Below, one piece after another: positions 18,354 to 36,510 of a stretch of DNA of 64,000 nucleotides. The translations under genes and the position numbers were made by a program. The stretch is taken from the NCBI RefSeq assembly GCF_001719615.1, contig NZ_MDVX01000003.1:124001-188000 (forward strand), in the 5' to 3' direction. The stretch's first letter is position 1. The number at the start of each line of letters is the position of its first letter. The notes beneath the pieces are model-generated. The model was not told where the DNA came from and made no database searches. It was given only the letters and a program-made list of their open reading frames with translations. The DNA comes from Neptunicoccus sediminis. GTDB taxonomy: Bacteria > Pseudomonadota > Alphaproteobacteria > Rhodobacterales > Rhodobacteraceae.

Positions 18354-18534
18354 CCGAGGCCAGACCGCAGTCTATCCCCCTTTCCGCATCGATCCGCGCC
18401 GCCAGCGCGTTGAGCGCGACACCTTCCGCCTGTGCTATGGCGCGAAACCCGTCCCAAAATTCCTGCTCCAGCGAAACGCTGGTGCGGTGGCCTTTCAATG
18501 ACAGGGAGTGTTTGCGCGGGCGGTCATACTCCAT
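18301..18534 (-). CDS. Ribbon-helix-helix domain protein
   Basis: 77 residues: the strand SLSLKGHRTSVSLEQEFWDGFRAIAQAEGVALNALAARID fits an Arc/MetJ-like ribbon-helix-helix DNA-binding fold (RHH_4 type common in alphaproteobacteria). The start at 18534 overlaps the Hint gene stop (ATGA), so the two form an operon. The 3' end runs 53 bases into the convergent P450 gene, an unusually long antisense overlap. The target DNA is unknown. Confidence 0.8.
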   Translation of the reverse strand: MEYDRPRKHSLSLKGHRTSVSLEQEFWDGFRAIAQAEGVALNALAARIDAERGIDCGLASAIRLFVFRWYRDHGASD

Positions 18535-19490
18535 CAGGCTGCCAGTATCTGTTTCAGCTTGGGCGGCAGCAAGGGCCGTGCGCAAGGACCATAGCACAGC
18601 GGATGATCCGCAAGGTCTGGCAGGATCGAAAACACCTCCGCGCGATCTTCCGGCGTCAGTGACATCAACCCGTTGGGGCAGGGGTAAAAGCTCTCTGTGG
18701 GGATGCCATCAGCGAAAATCACCTGATGTTCGTCAAACAGCAGATGAATGTAACGGGTATCTGTGGGGGCAGGGTCCAGCAGGATGGTGCTTCCGTTCAG
18801 CAGAACTGACGCGGGCGCGAAAATGCCTCCGTTGCCAAAAGCCTTGGTGATTTCCGGTGTTTCCAGCACGATCCGGTGCTTCTGTGAAACCCGGATGTCG
18901 TTTGAGGGAAGTCCGGGGCCGAAACTGTCGCGCCGGATGATGACGGGGCGCAGGTGATCCGCCATATCAATGCGGGAACGGGACACTTCGCGCGACCCGA
19001 TCCAGCGGATGGGTTGCAGCCCGTTATCGACCGTATGCACCAGATCCCCGATGCGCAGATCCTCTACCGGCAAATCACCAAACGCCGTCAGGATCCGGCA
19101 GTCTTGGGTGAAACACACCAGACCATCCGCGTCAAAAATTGCTGTTTCGCGGCTTTGGGAAATCCTGCAAATCGCCTCGCCCCGCGCCACATGGCCTTTG
19201 GTCAGGACGATACGGGACGGGCTGCGCTGACCGTCCTCGCGCCGGAGTCGGGCAAATTCTACCTGCCGCTGATCGCGCCGGTCGGGATTAACGGTGCCGA
19301 CCCAGACCGACTGGGCATCCGGCCCGCAAATCCGGTAGTCCACACCCTCTATCTGGCAGCGCGCCAAAGGCGTCACAGCGTTCAGAAACGTGTCCTGTGC
19401 AACCGCCAGTTCTGCGGTGCCCGTTGAAAGGATCGTGCAATCAGGGTCTGCGTCGGGGCGACCGAGCGTTTCGTAAAACGTGATGTTCAC
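18534..19490 (-). CDS. Hint-domain protein (copy A)
   Basis: 318 residues from a GTG start. The Hedgehog/intein Hint_2 domain begins at VCFTQDCRILTAFGDLPVEDLRIGDLV (~residue 125) and contains DNGLQPIRWIG and the SQKHRIVL block, the places of the nucleophilic Cys and catalytic His of autoprocessing domains. An N-terminal part of ~120 residues without recognised domain precedes it. There is no signal peptide. Such proteins are abundant in Rhodobacteraceae and some may self-cleave or be exported. It is paralogous to the next gene and translationally coupled to the ribbon-helix-helix gene. Confidence 0.85.
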   Translation of the reverse strand: MNITFYETLGRPDADPDCTILSTGTAELAVAQDTFLNAVTPLARCQIEGVDYRICGPDAQSVWVGTVNPDRRDQRQVEFARLRREDGQRSPSRIVLTKGHVARGEAICRISQSRETAIFDADGLVCFTQDCRILTAFGDLPVEDLRIGDLVHTVDNGLQPIRWIGSREVSRSRIDMADHLRPVIIRRDSFGPGLPSNDIRVSQKHRIVLETPEITKAFGNGGIFAPASVLLNGSTILLDPAPTDTRYIHLLFDEHQVIFADGIPTESFYPCPNGLMSLTPEDRAEVFSILPDLADHPLCYGPCARPLLPPKLKQILAA

Positions 19491-19669
19491 ATCACACCTG
19501 TTTGTTCGGGATGCCGTCCCCGCCTCGTCGCGGGGACGTTATCGCCTGCCTCATGTCTGTCCAGCTTTTGCCGGATCGTTTTATGAACCCATACTGCGTC
19601 ATCACGGGATGGTGTTCAATTCTGTAGACCGTTGATCGCGTCTGTTTCCATCAAATTGAGTCTTTCTGG

Positions 19670-20734
19670 TCACATAGCGAAGCGGTTGGAGTCGTTCAGT
19701 AATTTCCCTACCGAAGTTAGATTGCTGCCCTTGCTACGGCGCAGAAAAGCACGGGTTTCCTGCACCTTCAGACTAAGCCGCGCAGTGGGGCCGTAATCGT
19801 CAGGTGTGGTCTCCAGCTCGGGAAAAATTTCAAAAAGTTCGGTGCGGGCTTCATCGTCGATCGTATCCATCGCGTGATGGCCGGGGTGGAAACTTTCGCT
19901 GGGCGTTCCATTGGCGAAGATCACCTCGTGACGGTCAAACAGGATATGGATGTAATCGGTTTCGCGCATCCCGTAATCCACAGTGATAGAGCTGTCATTC
20001 AACAGTCCCTTGGCGGGCAGCAGCATTTCGCTCTCTCCGAAATCCAAAGTTGCCCGTTCAGAGCGCACAAGCATCCGGTGTTGCGGTGAGACCCAAAGAT
20101 CCCGTGTCGGCTGTCCGGGCCCGAAGGCATCCTTGCGGATACGCACAGGGCGCAGTTCAGGATAGGCCTGCAGCCGTGCGCCGCTCATCCGTTTGCGCCC
20201 GATCCAGCGGATCGCCTGCAAACCGTTGTCGGCGGTAATCACCAGATCACCTACATGCAAATCCTGCACCGCAACCTGTCCGCGCGGGGTGGTGATCATG
20301 GCATCCGGCGTAAAACAAATGATCGAAGGTATGGAGTTATAGGGAACATTGCTGTTGCCGGTTTCCAACTCGATGTCGCGCAGCCGCATTCTCGGGCTGA
20401 ATTCAGGGCCGGAAAGCTGGACGATCCGGTCAACCCTGTCATCCACACCATCCCTTTCGGCAGTGAGATAGGCAAAGGTTACGGTCTCTTGCGATCCTTG
20501 AATGCGCACTGTGGCCGAGAAAATTTCAACCTTATCGCCTGTGGAGGTGTAGTCGGGCCAGGCAGAAGAATAGAAATCTTCGCCGTCGATGGAGAATTGC
20601 ACCCCGGTGTCATCTGCACCGGATTCCAGAAAGCCGTCGTTATCTTCGATATAGGCACGTCCGCTGGACCCCAGACGGAGATTATTGCTGTTTAACGGAT
20701 CACCGTTAACCTCAAAAAAGGTAAAATATGCCAA
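19670..20734 (-). CDS. Hint-domain protein (copy B)
   Basis: 354 residues; the best start is a TTG (MAYFTFFEVNGD) because no ATG or GTG lies upstream in frame close by. The N-terminal ~130 residues form a beta-rich acidic module (YIEDNDGFLESGADDTGVQFSIDG). The Hint_2 domain follows: ICFTPDAMITTPRGQVAVQDLHVGDLV, DNGLQAIRWIG, SPQHRMLV. The C-terminal tail is basic. It is paralogous to copy A but with a different N-terminal module. Hint domains can cleave the peptide bond before Cys; the product is unknown. Confidence 0.82.
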   Translation of the reverse strand: MAYFTFFEVNGDPLNSNNLRLGSSGRAYIEDNDGFLESGADDTGVQFSIDGEDFYSSAWPDYTSTGDKVEIFSATVRIQGSQETVTFAYLTAERDGVDDRVDRIVQLSGPEFSPRMRLRDIELETGNSNVPYNSIPSIICFTPDAMITTPRGQVAVQDLHVGDLVITADNGLQAIRWIGRKRMSGARLQAYPELRPVRIRKDAFGPGQPTRDLWVSPQHRMLVRSERATLDFGESEMLLPAKGLLNDSSITVDYGMRETDYIHILFDRHEVIFANGTPSESFHPGHHAMDTIDDEARTELFEIFPELETTPDDYGPTARLSLKVQETRAFLRRSKGSNLTSVGKLLNDSNRFAM

Positions 20735-30216: not shown

Positions 30217-31131
30217 ATGCCACTTACCCCGGAACAGCAGGCCGAAATCAGCGAACAACGGGCGCAATCCGCGCCGACCCGCCGTGTGGTTGCACCGGGA
30301 ATGGAGCAGCATCTCTATACCGCGCAGCCGGTTCTGGACCACGGGTTTGTGCGGGTGATCGACTATATGGGCGATGATGCGGCGATCACGCAGGCGGCCC
30401 GTGTGTCCTATGGCAAGGGCACCAAAGCGGTGCAAAATGACGAAGGTCTGATCCGCTATCTGATGCGGCACTGGCATTCTACCCCGTTTGAGATGTGCGA
30501 GATCAAGCTGCACGTCAAACTGCCGGTTTTCGTGGCCCGCCAGTGGATTCGCCATCGCACCGCGAATGTGAACGAATATTCCGCGCGGTATTCGATTCTG
30601 GACCGTGAGTTCTATATCCCCGCCGAAGAACATCTCGCCAAGCAGAGCGTGATCAACAATCAGGGGCGCGGCGATACGCTGGTCGGGGAAGATGCGCAGC
30701 GGGTGCTTGAGATGCTCAAGGCAGACAGTGCGCGGGCCTATGACAATTACGCCACGATGATCGACGAGGGCGAAGACGGTAACGGCATCGCGCTGGCCCG
30801 AGAACTGGCGCGGATGAACCTGCCTGCCAACATCTATACCCAGTGGTATTGGAAGGTAGATCTGCACAACCTGTTCCACTTCCTGCGGCTGCGGGCAGAT
30901 TCCCACGCCCAGTACGAAATCCGCGTCTATGCCGAAGAAATCTGTCGCCTTGTGGCAGATTGGGTGCCCTACGCCTACAAAGCCTTTGAGGATTACCGTC
31001 TGGGTGGCGCACAACTGTCCCAGCCCGCGGTAGAAGCCCTGCGCAAGATGCTGAAAGGCGAAAAGGTCGAAGCCGCAGATGTAGGCATGAGCGCACGGGA
31101 ATGGCGCGAGTTTATGGATATTGTCAGCTAG
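30217..31131 (+). CDS. thyX: FAD-dependent thymidylate synthase
   Basis: 304-residue flavin-dependent enzyme making dTMP from dUMP with methylenetetrahydrofolate. The signature [13 protein letters not shown] (residues ~112-124) is complete, and the helical region [33 protein letters not shown] matches the C-terminal dUMP/FAD site. The length is slightly above the typical ~220-300 because of an N-terminal extension of about 25 residues. Single gene. Confidence 0.95.
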
Positions 31132-31296: not shown

Positions 31297-32268
31297 ATGA
31301 CCTCCAGAACCAAAAAGCAGCATTTTGTACCACGATTCTATTTGGTTAAATTTTGCGATCCGGAGGGGTTTGTTTGGACTTACTCAGGTGGGGATGAACC
31401 GCGTGGAAACAAAGCAGAAGCTACTGCCGTCGAGACGAATTTCTATAGCCCAATCGGCGCAGACGGCGAACGCTTTGATGAGGCTGAAGAATTTCTGGCA
31501 GTTATTGAAGGTAACGCCGCACCTCTCTGGGGTGAACTCTGTGCGGGCAAAGTTTTGAAAGGTGAAAAACGTGAACACGTTGCACTGTTCCTAGCTGCCC
31601 AATACTTGCGTTCGCCCTCTACCGTCCGTGCTGGTGCCGAAATGATGGCCATGGTCGCACATCACACGTCTCAATTCATCGCCACTGATAAAGATTTTTA
31701 TGATCAATCTGTCGACAACTACGAAGAGGAAACCGGCAAAAGAATTTCTCGCAAAGAACGCGAAAAGATGCGCAAATTATTGAGTGACTCTAACAACTTT
31801 TGCATTAATGTTCTGCGTTCAGCCGGCCTGCCGGTGCTCGGCACTATAGGAGATCTCGCGAACATTTTCCTGAACATGAAATGGGTAGTTGGACGCAGCG
31901 AGGACCAGCATCTAATTACATCGGACAGTCCGGTCACTCGGATTTCTGACCCCAAAACTCATAATAAGGTCTATGGCGACGGCGCGTTTGCAAATAAGAC
32001 AGTAAGGGTCGGCTTTCCGCTTACACCCTCACGTGTCTTGGAACTGACATGGCAGGGTGAAGAGAAGGAGCGGTTGGTGGAAATACCGAAAAAAATGGCT
32101 CGAGAGATGAATGGGATCAGGGCGGCGCAGGCCGAACGTTTCGTATATGCCTCGAAAAGCGATTTTGGAATAGAGAAACTATGCAGAAAATGGTTGGAGC
32201 CAGAGAGGTTGAACAAGGTTGTAACGGGTATTAACACACCTTCAATTCAAGTTAAGCGGAAGTTCTAG
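31297..32268 (+). CDS. DUF4238 protein, AT-rich
   Basis: 323 residues; the N-terminus KKQHFVPRFYLVKF is the hallmark of DUF4238, and the later block LITSDSPVTR is also conserved in the family. Function unknown. It is visibly more AT-rich than flanking genes, uses AGA, ATA and AAA codons, and stands alone in a low-coding 1.4 kb stretch, so it looks horizontally acquired. DUF4238 genes are often accessory and scattered; a defence role is possible but there is no direct evidence here. Confidence 0.82.
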   Translation: MTSRTKKQHFVPRFYLVKFCDPEGFVWTYSGGDEPRGNKAEATAVETNFYSPIGADGERFDEAEEFLAVIEGNAAPLWGELCAGKVLKGEKREHVALFLAAQYLRSPSTVRAGAEMMAMVAHHTSQFIATDKDFYDQSVDNYEEETGKRISRKEREKMRKLLSDSNNFCINVLRSAGLPVLGTIGDLANIFLNMKWVVGRSEDQHLITSDSPVTRISDPKTHNKVYGDGAFANKTVRVGFPLTPSRVLELTWQGEEKERLVEIPKKMAREMNGIRAAQAERFVYASKSDFGIEKLCRKWLEPERLNKVVTGINTPSIQVKRKF

Positions 32269-33132: not shown

Positions 33133-34104
33133 CTAGGGTGCGATCATCCATTCCCCATCTGGCCAGAAGGCGTGGAAAGCAAAGGCAAACATTACGTCAT
33201 GGACCACGTCACGGCCCTGCGCATCCCGCACGCGGATCGTGCCCACATCCCTGCCACGGGCGATCTCCCCCGTATCTAGGGCCGAGGCCTGACCTGATTC
33301 CCAACTGATATGAACCCCGGCTTCCGAAACGCCTCCGGCTGCGCGCACACGGGCCACCGGCCACGCCCTGTTGCCGACCCTGACCACCCGCGCGACAGGG
33401 GCGATGCCGTGAGGCGGCATTTCCCCGTTATACAGGAACGGACGGGCAGAGCTGTCATAGCCCTGATACGGATTGCGTCCGTAGGGGCGACCAGCAGCGG
33501 GCTGTTGCATGACCAGACCGGAGGCACCGTTGCGGGTTTTGAATTCCCGCCAGCTTTCCATCCAGCCCGGCAGCATGGTCAGTTCTGTTCCCGTCAGATC
33601 CCCCACAATGGCAAGGCCAACTGCCTGTTGCCACCAGCTTTCGGTCTCGCGGTCAAACATCACCATATCGGAATTCCGCAGCTTGCCAGACACCCCGAAA
33701 GTCAACACACCGTGGGCTGTGCGCCGATCAAAGGTCACAGCCGAATTACACAGCGGGCAGAAGGTGACGGCAACCGGAACGCCGCCGATCGAGTCGTTTA
33801 CGATTTCGTGCCAGATCAGATAGCGGATCGGATAGGCCCGCTCGGGCTGACCCGACAGCGCGACTGTCATCACAGGTTCATTCGGTTGCAGGGTGGTCTC
33901 GGCAGAGGTTTCATGAAATTTGGGCGCATCAATCGCCGGAATTCCGTCACGCGGCGGCCCGCCGGATTGAATTTCTGCCCAATTGTCGACGGTTTTCCTG
34001 CTAAAATCAGTGCCCGGCCATTCCCGTTTCCAGACATCGGGTTGCGACACAACAGGCGAAGCCACCAGAAACGCGGCGGCGAACAAGGGTATGAAACGGT
34101 GCAT
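33133..34104 (-). CDS. DUF3179 secreted protein
   Basis: 323 residues with a signal peptide (HRFIPLFAAAFLVASPVVSQ). The DUF3179 blocks are clear: AYPIRYLIWHEIVNDSIGGVPVAVTFCPLCNSAVTFDR (with CxxC), SGKLRNSDMVMFDRETESWWQQ and the YQGYDSS region. The start at 34104 has a strong GGGAGGAAAG site; the longer frame is noncoding. Periplasmic or extracellular; biochemical function not established for the family. Confidence 0.88.
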   Translation of the reverse strand: MHRFIPLFAAAFLVASPVVSQPDVWKREWPGTDFSRKTVDNWAEIQSGGPPRDGIPAIDAPKFHETSAETTLQPNEPVMTVALSGQPERAYPIRYLIWHEIVNDSIGGVPVAVTFCPLCNSAVTFDRRTAHGVLTFGVSGKLRNSDMVMFDRETESWWQQAVGLAIVGDLTGTELTMLPGWMESWREFKTRNGASGLVMQQPAAGRPYGRNPYQGYDSSARPFLYNGEMPPHGIAPVARVVRVGNRAWPVARVRAAGGVSEAGVHISWESGQASALDTGEIARGRDVGTIRVRDAQGRDVVHDVMFAFAFHAFWPDGEWMIAP

Positions 34105-34327
34105 ATCTTTCCTCCCAGATAGATGACGCGGTCTGCCAAAGGATGCCCGCGCAATGCCCGTCTGCATAGTCCAACCACGGCATTGTGAAATCGCGGCATC
34201 CTTGGTCAAAGCCGCGTCATTCCGGCAAACCCCGCGCGGGTGGGGAAGAAAACAGGCCAAAGGAGCCGATTTTTTCTCCATTTTACTCTTGCAGCCCGAA
34301 AGCTGTGGCGCTAAATACAGCCACAGT

Positions 34328-34402
34328 TGGGACGTGGCCTAGTGGTAGGGCAACGCTTTTTGGTAGCGCAGATCGTAGGTTCGAATCCTACCGTCCCAGC
34401 CA
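34328..34402 (+). tRNA. tRNA-Gln (UUG), copy 1
   Basis: Full cloverleaf with perfect 7-base-pair acceptor stem TGGGACG/CGTCCCA, anticodon stem ACGCT/AGCGC flanking loop TTTTGGT (anticodon TTG, reads CAA/CAG), T-arm GTAGG-TTCGAAT-CCTAC, discriminator G, CCA encoded. Identical to the copy on the other strand at 35162. Confidence 0.96.
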
Positions 34403-34622
34403 ACTTTCTTAAAATAGTCGTTTTGTGGTCAGGTTAAGACCTGCATGTTTTTGCGTTACACCTAGCATGCTTGTCGTTTTGCCGATGCCGTACAAAATTT
34501 CTCTAATTAAGCGGACACTCGCAATACTAGACTTGTCAATCTTAGGTTTAGTTAATAGCTTGCCCCAGTCCGAATAAGTTTTTTCTTTTTTGACACAAAA
34601 TGATAATATCCGGAGAGTATTC

Positions 34623-34937
34623 ATGTTTCGATTTGTTCTATTGGCCAGCATTGCTTTGGCAGCTTGTACACAAACTGCAGTGACAAACTACAATGGGAAC
34701 AGCATTCGTATCCAATCAAGTAGTAGGAATATTACGCAAGAGGTCCTATCGGAAGCCCAACGAATTTGTTGGACGCAAGGACTTCAAGCAGAATTTGCGT
34801 CAACACTATCTCGTTCTACCGACTATTTTACCTACAACCACCTTTTCCTTTGTCTGACACGAGCAAAACCAAATGCAGGTTTGCCGAGAGCTGCAGTCAG
34901 CTCACCCAGTTATTTGGAAACCACATCTACGCTTTAG
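34623..34937 (+). CDS. Small lipoprotein in tRNA-flanked AT-rich segment
   Basis: 104 residues from ATG 34623 behind GGAGAG. A lipoprotein signal FVLLASIALAAC gives lipidated Cys15. The mature part (VTNYNGNSIRIQ, EVLSEAQRICWTQGLQAEF, YFTYNHLFLCL) is not a family I can name; the two later cysteines might form a disulfide. Its base composition is AT-rich compared with the region. It is the only credible gene between two inverted identical tRNA-Gln genes, so it may be cargo of a transfer or duplication event. Confidence 0.65.
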   Translation: MFRFVLLASIALAACTQTAVTNYNGNSIRIQSSSRNITQEVLSEAQRICWTQGLQAEFASTLSRSTDYFTYNHLFLCLTRAKPNAGLPRAAVSSPSYLETTSTL

Positions 34938-35161
34938 GAACGATAACCGGACGGGAAGTTGGCTAATGTCATTTTTTTCACATCACCGAAGATTTTACAG
35001 CTAGGCTATTAACAGGTGCAGACTATGGACCTGTTACAGTCCTGTACGGCACCTCACCACCCGCAAGTGTAGGATAAAAATCAATTCATTAAAAAATAAG
35101 AACTGCAGCCAAGAGCTTTCGCATAGACTGGCGGCTTTTTAAAAGTGGATATGAAAGAAAC

Positions 35162-35236
35162 TGGCTGGGACGGTAGGATTCGAACCTACGATCTGCGCTA
35201 CCAAAAAGCGTTGCCCTACCACTAGGCCACGTCCCA
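35162..35236 (-). tRNA. tRNA-Gln (UUG), copy 2
   Basis: Base-for-base identical to copy 1 (34328-34402) but on the minus strand, again with CCA encoded and anticodon TTG. Two convergent-facing copies of the same tRNA less than 1 kb apart are unusual. Confidence 0.96.
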
Positions 35237-35334
35237 ACTGGGGCGCTGTTTAACCTTAACCTTGCCGGTCTGCAAAGGGTAAATTGCGAAAAACGACCAC
35301 TTGTTTTGCGCGGGGCTGCTGGATAAGGCAGGGC

Positions 35335-36510
35335 ATGGAAAAATTTGATGTTTGTATCGTGGGTGCGGGCGCAGCGGGGCTGATGTGCGCGATTGAATCG
35401 GGGCGCCGCGGGCGGTCTGTGCTTTTGCTGGATCACAGCAAGGCACCGGCAGAAAAGATTCGGATCTCCGGTGGCGGGCGCTGTAATTTCACCAATCTGG
35501 ACATTCGTCCCGAACGGTTTCTGTCCCAAAACCCCCATTTCGCCAAATCCGCGCTAAGCCGCTATACCCAGTTCGATTTCATCGACATGGTGGCCCGCCA
35601 CAACATTCCCTATCACGAGAAAACCCTCGGGCAGTTGTTCTGCGACAGTTCTGCAAAGGACATCATCAACATGCTGCTGGAAGAGGCGCAGGCGGCAGGT
35701 GTAGAGTTACGCCTGAACACCTCGGTTGACACCGTATCGCGCGATGATGGGTTTAGGCTGTCAACCACGGGTGGTCATGTTAAGGCGCAGTCTCTGGTCA
35801 TTGCGACGGGCGGCAAGTCCATTCCCAAGATGGGCGCAACCGGCTGGGGCTATCAGATTGCCCGCCAATTTGACCTGCCACTGGTGGACACGCGTCCCGG
35901 ACTCGTGCCGCTGACCTTTGCCGAACAGGACTTGCAGCAGACAAAGCCGCTGGCCGGAGTCTCGGTGCAAGCGCGGGTGAGCACGCCCCAAATCGGTTTC
36001 GACGAAGGGTTGCTGTTTACCCATCGGGGCTTGTCGGGGCCGTCTATCCTGCAAATATCTTCTTACTGGCGGGAAGGTGATGAAGTTTTTGTCGATCTGG
36101 CCGCTGGCGAGAACACGTTTGACACGCTGCGCACTGCACGGGGTCAAAAGGGGCGCGTGTCCTTGGCCAAGGCGCTGGCGCAGATCGTGCCTGCGCGACT
36201 GGCGGAGCAGATCCTCGGGGATGTGCCGCTGAAAGGCAATCTTGCGGATCAGAGCGATTCCAACCTGCAAACCCTGCACGCGCGGGTGCATCGCTGGGCG
36301 GTGAAACCGGTCGGATCAGAGGGTTATCGCACGGCGGAAGTTACACTTGGCGGGGTGGATACCGCGGCGCTGGACGCAAAAACAATGGCTGTGCGCAAAC
36401 TTCCAAACCTGTTTTTCATCGGAGAAGTCGTCGATGTGACCGGCTGGCTTGGCGGCTATAACTTTCAGTGGGCCTGGTCGTCCGGCTGGGCAGCAGGGCA
36501 GGTGGCCTAG
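35335..36510 (+). CDS. HI0933/YhiN-type flavoprotein
   Basis: 391 residues. An N-terminal dinucleotide-binding motif CIVGAGAAGLMCAIESGRRG is followed by the family motif KIRISGGGRCNFTN, and the C-terminal block GEVVDVTGWLGGYNFQWAWSSGWAAG closes the FAD site. Members are soluble NAD(P)/FAD-dependent oxidoreductases of unsettled physiological role. The start is ATG 35335 with AAGG in front; the longer frame runs into the tRNA promoter region. Convergent with the mechanosensitive channel gene, four bases apart. Confidence 0.9.
   Translation: MEKFDVCIVGAGAAGLMCAIESGRRGRSVLLLDHSKAPAEKIRISGGGRCNFTNLDIRPERFLSQNPHFAKSALSRYTQFDFIDMVARHNIPYHEKTLGQLFCDSSAKDIINMLLEEAQAAGVELRLNTSVDTVSRDDGFRLSTTGGHVKAQSLVIATGGKSIPKMGATGWGYQIARQFDLPLVDTRPGLVPLTFAEQDLQQTKPLAGVSVQARVSTPQIGFDEGLLFTHRGLSGPSILQISSYWREGDEVFVDLAAGENTFDTLRTARGQKGRVSLAKALAQIVPARLAEQILGDVPLKGNLADQSDSNLQTLHARVHRWAVKPVGSEGYRTAEVTLGGVDTAALDAKTMAVRKLPNLFFIGEVVDVTGWLGGYNFQWAWSSGWAAGQVA

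Follow-up and report, generated by a model that had tools for sequence, protein, structure and literature searches.

Two identical, convergent tRNA-Gln(TTG) genes bounding a variable insert in Neptunicoccus sediminis and two genomes of its genus

Introduction

The 3′ flanks of tRNA genes are known to be prone to integration and deletion, and the attachment duplication that marks such a site is a direct repeat, usually of part of the gene, rather than an inverted copy of the whole. Oppositely oriented tRNA genes as places of rearrangement have been described in Thermococcus: in the passages cited, two inversions have their breakpoints in such genes, and a plasmid integrase inverts DNA in vitro between inverted copies of one tRNA gene, though not between tRNA-Leu and tRNA-Thr tested together (PMC5495485). 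tRNA-Gln is named among the prophage tRNA sites of Rhodobacteraceae (PMC8224337), and tRNA-Gln-TTG is the site of a Citromicrobium prophage (PMC12486242), in the excerpts cited of both papers. A convergent tRNA-Gln pair in bacteria is not described in the titles and abstract openings of the matches listed for paired tRNA genes and for tRNA-Gln sites.

Here we analyse such a pair in a stretch of 64,000 nt from Neptunicoccus sediminis, hereafter the window. The original prediction had read the perfect inverted pair as a recent duplication-inversion, as a transposition-like event using the tRNA, or as a segment that can flip by recombination between its arms. Comparison with genomes of the genus (33, including that of the window, G000) and with a family sample leads us to a different reading: the locus is probably an old, inherited duplication of tRNA-Gln(TTG) in which two probably functional, convergent genes bound a slot for accessory genes.

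Results

The tRNA-Gln pair

ARAGORN places tRNA-Gln(TTG) genes at 34328-34402 (+) and 35162-35236 (-), and Rfam gives either copy the same score with RF00005, 64.7 bits. The cloverleaf and the encoded CCA are intact in both, and the genes are convergent, their 3′ ends pointing inward. The features of the pair are as follows:

34324..34402 (+): left tRNA-Gln(TTG) with 4-nt leader and encoded CCA, the left arm (ARAGORN, Rfam, repeat match); G015 and G031 have it at this position too
35162..35240 (-): right tRNA-Gln(TTG), the right arm and ancestral copy, divergent from an HI0933-type oxidoreductase gene (ARAGORN, Rfam, repeat match)
34289..34317 (+): promoter-like boxes of the left copy, TTGCAG, 17-nt spacer, TAAATA (conserved alignment columns)
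35247..35275 (-): promoter-like boxes of the right copy, TTGCAG, 17-nt spacer, TAAACA (conserved alignment columns)

The longest exact reverse-complementary match is that of the two arms, 79 nt (34324-34402 against 35162-35240) with a gap of 759 bp; the exact identity covers the tRNA and the 4-nt leader and goes no further. A looser match takes in 12 nt more upstream and 13 nt more downstream, giving 104 nt at 90%. Besides the tRNA arms, a search with seed 14 for inverted repeats of at least 32 nt found a single one in the whole window, of 32 nt at 75%. The promoter-like boxes come from an alignment of 21 tRNA-Gln upstream regions and carry labels that we assigned; a consensus promoter scan did not pick them out.

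The insert of the window

Between the tRNA genes lie the following features:

34403..35161 (no strand): AT-rich insert of 759 bp between the 3′ ends of both tRNAs; the 1078-bp insert that G015 and G031 carry is not convincingly homologous to it
34623..34937 (+): small lipoprotein gene, 104 aa from the chosen ATG (ORF list, homologue alignment)

The GC content of the insert is 41.6% against 57.2% for the window, and no other stretch of its size is lower: among 1265 segments of 759 nt (step 50 nt), only the segment that covers the insert reaches so low a value. The lipoprotein gene is the largest ORF entirely within the insert (ORFs of at least 60 aa). The listed ORF spans 34590-34937 (+); we picked the ATG at 34623 as its start and read the lipobox, LAAC, by eye. 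The description of two identical inverted tRNA-Gln genes around an AT-rich lipoprotein gene is thus borne out by ARAGORN, Rfam, the GC count and the ORF list, and that of exact 79-base arms containing the full tRNA and CCA, 759 bases apart, by the repeat search.

Weak relatives of the lipoprotein occur in 2 other genomes of the 33 in the genus and in 8 others of the 295 in the family sample. The core of this protein family stops near residue 78, the four homologues aligned terminating in LYLCL or LYICLN, and the window protein adds a C-terminal tail that is missing in all four; this tail may be a sign of divergence or decay. The protein had no match in Pfam, PHROG, NCBIfam or PADLOC, nor in collections of phages, plasmids and viral contigs, the last search detecting close relatives only. 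The insert DNA matched no phage or plasmid record, none of the ORFs of at least 60 aa wholly within it resembles an integrase or recombinase, and no direct repeat of at least 15 nt was found joining its two ends.

Distribution of the pair among relatives

The 79-mer was searched in the 33 genomes of the genus and matched in 30 at E 0.001 or better; the matches of G005 and G023 are tRNA-Pro, which leaves 28 genomes with the tRNA-Gln locus. The convergent pair is present in three of the 33: G000, G015 and G031. All three have the same outer flanks, with thyX and a DUF3179 gene on the left and HI0933, mscS and pgm on the right (mscS and pgm being our labels). In G027 there are two matches to the 79-mer, both at contig ends that overlap inside the tRNA, and the drafts G004 and G012 stop near the tRNA, so that pairs could go undetected in them. 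The second matches of the other genomes are mostly 72-75% identical across about 74 nt and, judged by two typed examples, are probably tRNA-Pro.

In the family sample, 178 of 295 genomes (294 genera) match at E 1e-14 or better and four have two matches, with up to three candidates scored per genome. These four are the genome of the window, G277, G107 and G142. The copies of G277 and G107, members of two other genera, are direct tandem genes 124 and 86 nt apart, respectively (L197, L200; L199, L202), and those of G142 are on separate contigs.

Neighbouring genes and the left junction

Outside the pair, the conserved genes of the window are:

35338..36510 (+): HI0933-like FAD oxidoreductase gene, right outer flank, ancestral neighbour of tRNA-Gln
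33133..34104 (-): DUF3179 gene, left outer flank
30217..31131 (+): thyX, a conserved gene farther left

As at the right copy, the tRNA-Gln gene adjoins a divergent HI0933-type gene in 23 of the 25 genus genomes that have the locus apart from G000, G015 and G031. The two exceptions are G012, whose contig begins 64 nt upstream of the tRNA, and G011, which has no HI0933 match in the 1.5 kb fetched. By its neighbourhood, then, the right tRNA-Gln is the ancestral copy. In a contig scan from which close kin may be left out, no hit to the HI0933 protein exceeded 64% identity, and the best named hits point to Rhodobacteraceae; an alpha-tmRNA match indicates an alphaproteobacterium.

The left copy adjoins the DUF3179 gene. 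In seven of nine loci fetched from other genomes the DUF3179 gene lies between tyrS-like and ppi-like genes (again our labels); of the remaining two, G010 has ppi-like genes on one side, and in G018 the gene is near a contig start with another neighbour. The tyrS locus is devoid of DUF3179 in G000 and G031, and the contig of G015 ends there. Among the genus genomes examined, DUF3179 was not seen near tRNA-Gln on one contig outside the three with the pair. For the thyX protein, the window shares 98% identity with both G015 and G031 and no more than 90% with any further member of the genus. Sixteen other genus genomes have thyX at more than 60% identity: its distance from tRNA-Gln is 784 kb in G003, 794 kb in G013 and 532 kb in G022, ten have the two on different contigs, and three have no tRNA-Gln match. 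By gene order, the left junction is thus specific to G000, G015 and G031 among the genomes examined.

Further observations concern the left part of the window. A DUF4238 gene (31297-32268) stands between thyX and DUF3179, was not found there in G015 and G031, and gives a weak match to the candidate defence model DUF4238-Pers. A 74-nt direct repeat of 76% identity and spacing 1202 (18996-20271) lies in the ORFs 18534-19490 and 19670-20734, both of which match a single site in the thyX region of G003, G027 and G017.

Age of the pair and identity of its arms

Third positions of the HI0933 gene are 0.577 identical between the window and G015, and 0.849 identical between G015 and G031. Since the pair and its flanks are common to three genomes whose HI0933 third positions fall to 58% identity, the pair predates the split of the window's lineage. 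The 96 nt upstream of the tRNA genes tell the same: orthologous copies of the window and G015 compare at z 17.7 (left with left) and z 28.7 (right with right), and the left and right copies of the window at z 5.1. Each upstream region is much closer to its orthologue than to that of the other copy, which places the duplication before the species split.

The identity of the arms is no sign of a recent origin, because the tRNA is identical in 78 of 78 positions in G035, a member of another genus. It is equally so in G009, though the HI0933 protein of that genome is only 63% identical to that of the window. Selection on the tRNA would be enough to explain the identical arms; gene conversion between them is possible and not needed, and its effect cannot be told from that of selection. 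More generally, inverted tRNA arms that match perfectly say little for recency, as constraint on the tRNA would give the same result. What stands of the proposed recent duplication-inversion is an extra, inverted tRNA-Gln, the left copy, at a lineage-specific rearrangement junction; its recency is not supported, given HI0933 third positions of 58% and upstream regions that diverged before the split. The prediction had set against a mobile or invertible segment the case of an old stable locus with divergent arms and a conserved insert: the locus proves to be old, but its arms are identical, as tRNA constraint would have them, and the insert shows no conservation.

The insert of G015 and G031

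At the same position G015 and G031 have an insert of 1078 bp, whose two versions show 90.4% identity and are oriented alike. The insert encodes a protein of 288 aa, present in these two of the 33 genus genomes. Only 3 of the 288 residues differ despite third positions that are 79% identical, which indicates that the gene is old in G015 and G031 and under purifying selection. The protein matched three plasmid records at 26-31% identity, no phage record, and no relative among viral contigs; its Peptidase_S9 match is slightly under the Pfam cut-off. A weak PADLOC match to JetC (E 0.0018) was not trusted, and a match to a chain named dHax3 was uninformative.

Homology between the window insert and that of G015 and G031 was rejected, the best blastn hit being only E 0.028. 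In forward local alignment the score was reached by 28 of 300 dinucleotide shuffles for G015 and by 41 of 300 for G031. With the window insert reversed, the figures were 5 of 300 and 43 of 300; the reversed alignment with G015 spans about 50 nt and scores 33, against a maximum of 30 among 60 simple shuffles. As four comparisons were made and G015 and G031 disagree, we did not count this alignment, although no other result leans toward a turned insert. In six comparisons, the ends of the inserts were also searched for similarity that could mark a recombination point, and none exceeded the shuffles.

DNA 3′ of the single tRNA-Gln

In genomes with a single copy, the DNA 3′ of tRNA-Gln consists mostly of unshared ORFs, as seen in 1.4 to about 35 kb from each of 15 genomes (14 of the genus and G035). 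A conserved gene was sought there, and the ORFs of at least 110 aa common to several genomes are few (some of the labels being ours): recombinase and DUF2924 genes in G024, G027 and G008, one pair shared by G008 and G030, and a transposase-like ORF shared by G012 and G024. Relatives have the same flanks with different content, as in a variable slot. On this comparison of gene content, the single tRNA-Gln has a hot spot of turnover on its 3′ side.

What recurs most there is a large serine recombinase: G027 and G024 have it at full length, G008 and G003 have parts of it, and in G001 the contig stops within it. That of G027 has the Pfam domains Resolvase and Recombinase, and its CcrB-like match is far under the equivalog cut-off. 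A DUF2924 gene accompanies the recombinase in G027 and G024, with a DUF3489 gene as well in G024; in G003 an istA/istB-like pair (our label) follows the partial recombinase. The 3′ end of the recombinase gene faces the 3′ end of tRNA-Gln in G027 (L037:2849-5151) and G024 (L042:6860-9977), a placement that is possibly an undescribed integration preference. Of the genomes with the pair, G015 gives no recombinase match, and the best ones of G000 and G031 are weak and lie on contigs other than that of the locus.

Fragments of the tRNA itself were also observed. Some 385 nt downstream of its tRNA-Gln, G010 carries a 24-nt 3′ fragment of that gene in direct orientation and with 92% identity (L045:76-99), which resembles an attachment-site remnant, and G006 carries a 30-nt 3′ fragment on another contig.

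Discussion

In the reading that we hold probable, a single tRNA-Gln(TTG) and part of its upstream sequence would have been duplicated in the common ancestor of three related species, the copies ending convergent with their 3′ ends facing. A rearrangement may have joined the variable region beyond the 3′ end of tRNA-Gln to the one beyond that of thyX and so set the left, ectopic copy facing the right. The orientations of tRNA-Gln and thyX in G003 permit one inversion and those in G013 and G022 do not; since they differ among these three genomes, one simple inversion cannot explain all. As promoter-like boxes, full cloverleaf and CCA are kept in both copies, both probably make the same tRNA, and selection on that tRNA would maintain them identical. 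Once the window's lineage had parted from G015 and G031, the slot would have gained, lost or exchanged its gene, a turnover that could follow from the ease with which tRNA 3′ flanks undergo integration and deletion. The locus would then be a modest example of relatives that differ in accessory genes inside fixed tRNA borders, and one that predates a species split. An extension of this reading, to which we give a small chance, is a two-sided exchange platform: identical borders that the cell needs, and that selection keeps alike, would let incoming DNA ending in tRNA-Gln recombine with either arm and swap whole genes, and the borders would never decay. If true, this would offer genomes a simple means of maintaining an insertion slot for repeated use.

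The chief competitor is that the left tRNA-Gln was acquired horizontally from a related species, together with the DUF3179 gene, and landed opposite the native copy. The left upstream region is nearer than the right to the single copies of G003, G004, G027, G009 and G018 and outscores it against 9 of 15 single copies in the genus, so the left copy could be an import and not a local duplicate. In the nearest genomes by HI0933 the z values for left and right are 7.3 and 0.9 (G003), 6.5 and 1.8 (G004), and 7.7 and 2.5 (G027), and the left region of the window is nearer to that of G009 (z 8.7) than to its own right-hand counterpart (z 5.1); DUF3179 is moreover gone from its usual place in G000 and G031. 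However, the right region scores higher against the other 6 of the 15, the signal comes from 96 nt only, and no genome beyond the three was seen with DUF3179 near tRNA-Gln on the same contig. We regard transfer as unlikely, yet as the alternative with most in its favour. An assembly artefact is barely credible: short repeats do break drafts, and the contigs of G027 terminate inside tRNA-Gln, but three separate assemblies agree on the flanks, one of them within a 647-kb contig, and the insert differs between the window and G015/G031.

The two remaining explanations take the segment to be movable, and both are improbable. If RecA or an integrase recombined the tRNA arms, the insert would flip and its gene would face the other side. 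Perfect inverted 79-nt arms 759 bp apart speak for it, the weak reversed alignment with G015 (5 of 300 shuffles) is the sole hint of a turned insert, and the in vitro inversion between inverted tRNA copies by the Thermococcus plasmid enzyme, in the passages cited (PMC5495485), makes flipping possible in principle here. Against this, the reversed alignment extends over some 50 nt and finds no backing in G031 (43 of 300), the insert holds no recombinase-like ORF, and flipping would alter little, as inward-pointing tRNA genes form both outer sides. The homologous inserts of G015 and G031 stand in one orientation (two genomes only), so the predicted ability to flip gains no support; we give it a slim chance, and it need not be assumed to account for the locus. 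Slimmer still is the chance of a recent mobile insertion bounded by tRNA copies, for example a small integrative element with its own tRNA-Gln. The AT-rich insert, the direct 24-nt fragment of G010 (92%, some 385 nt downstream), and the prophage sites at tRNA-Gln in Rhodobacteraceae (PMC8224337) and at tRNA-Gln-TTG in Citromicrobium (PMC12486242), as given in the excerpts cited, speak for it. The pair is nevertheless common to three genomes with old flanks, the far end of the insert is a full inverted tRNA copy and not a direct partial repeat, no integrase-like ORF lies in the insert, and neither insert nor lipoprotein has a phage, plasmid or viral-contig match (the last finding close relatives only). 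With no recombinase-like ORF and no such match, the suggested transposition-like event is likewise left unsupported.

Seen as an old duplication around a slot, the locus consists of duplicated tRNA genes bounding variable DNA, both of which are known kinds already. It resembles the Thermococcus pairs in having tRNA genes of opposite orientation at a rearrangement junction. Those pairs bound large inversions, with an integrase that acts on inverted tRNA copies, in the passages cited (PMC5495485), whereas the arms of the window are less than 1 kb apart and two genomes carry their insert in one orientation. With tRNA integration hot spots, as the cited excerpts describe them (PMC8224337, PMC12486242), it shares variable DNA directly 3′ of tRNA-Gln, together with recombinase genes or parts of them in G027, G024, G008, G003 and G001; unlike these, the far end in the window is a full inverted tRNA with promoter-like boxes in place of a direct repeat of part of the gene, and the insert lacks an integrase-like ORF. 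Like G277, G107 and G142, the genome of the window has an extra copy of the same tRNA-Gln gene; unlike the direct tandem copies of G277 and G107, its copies are convergent and hold a gene between them.
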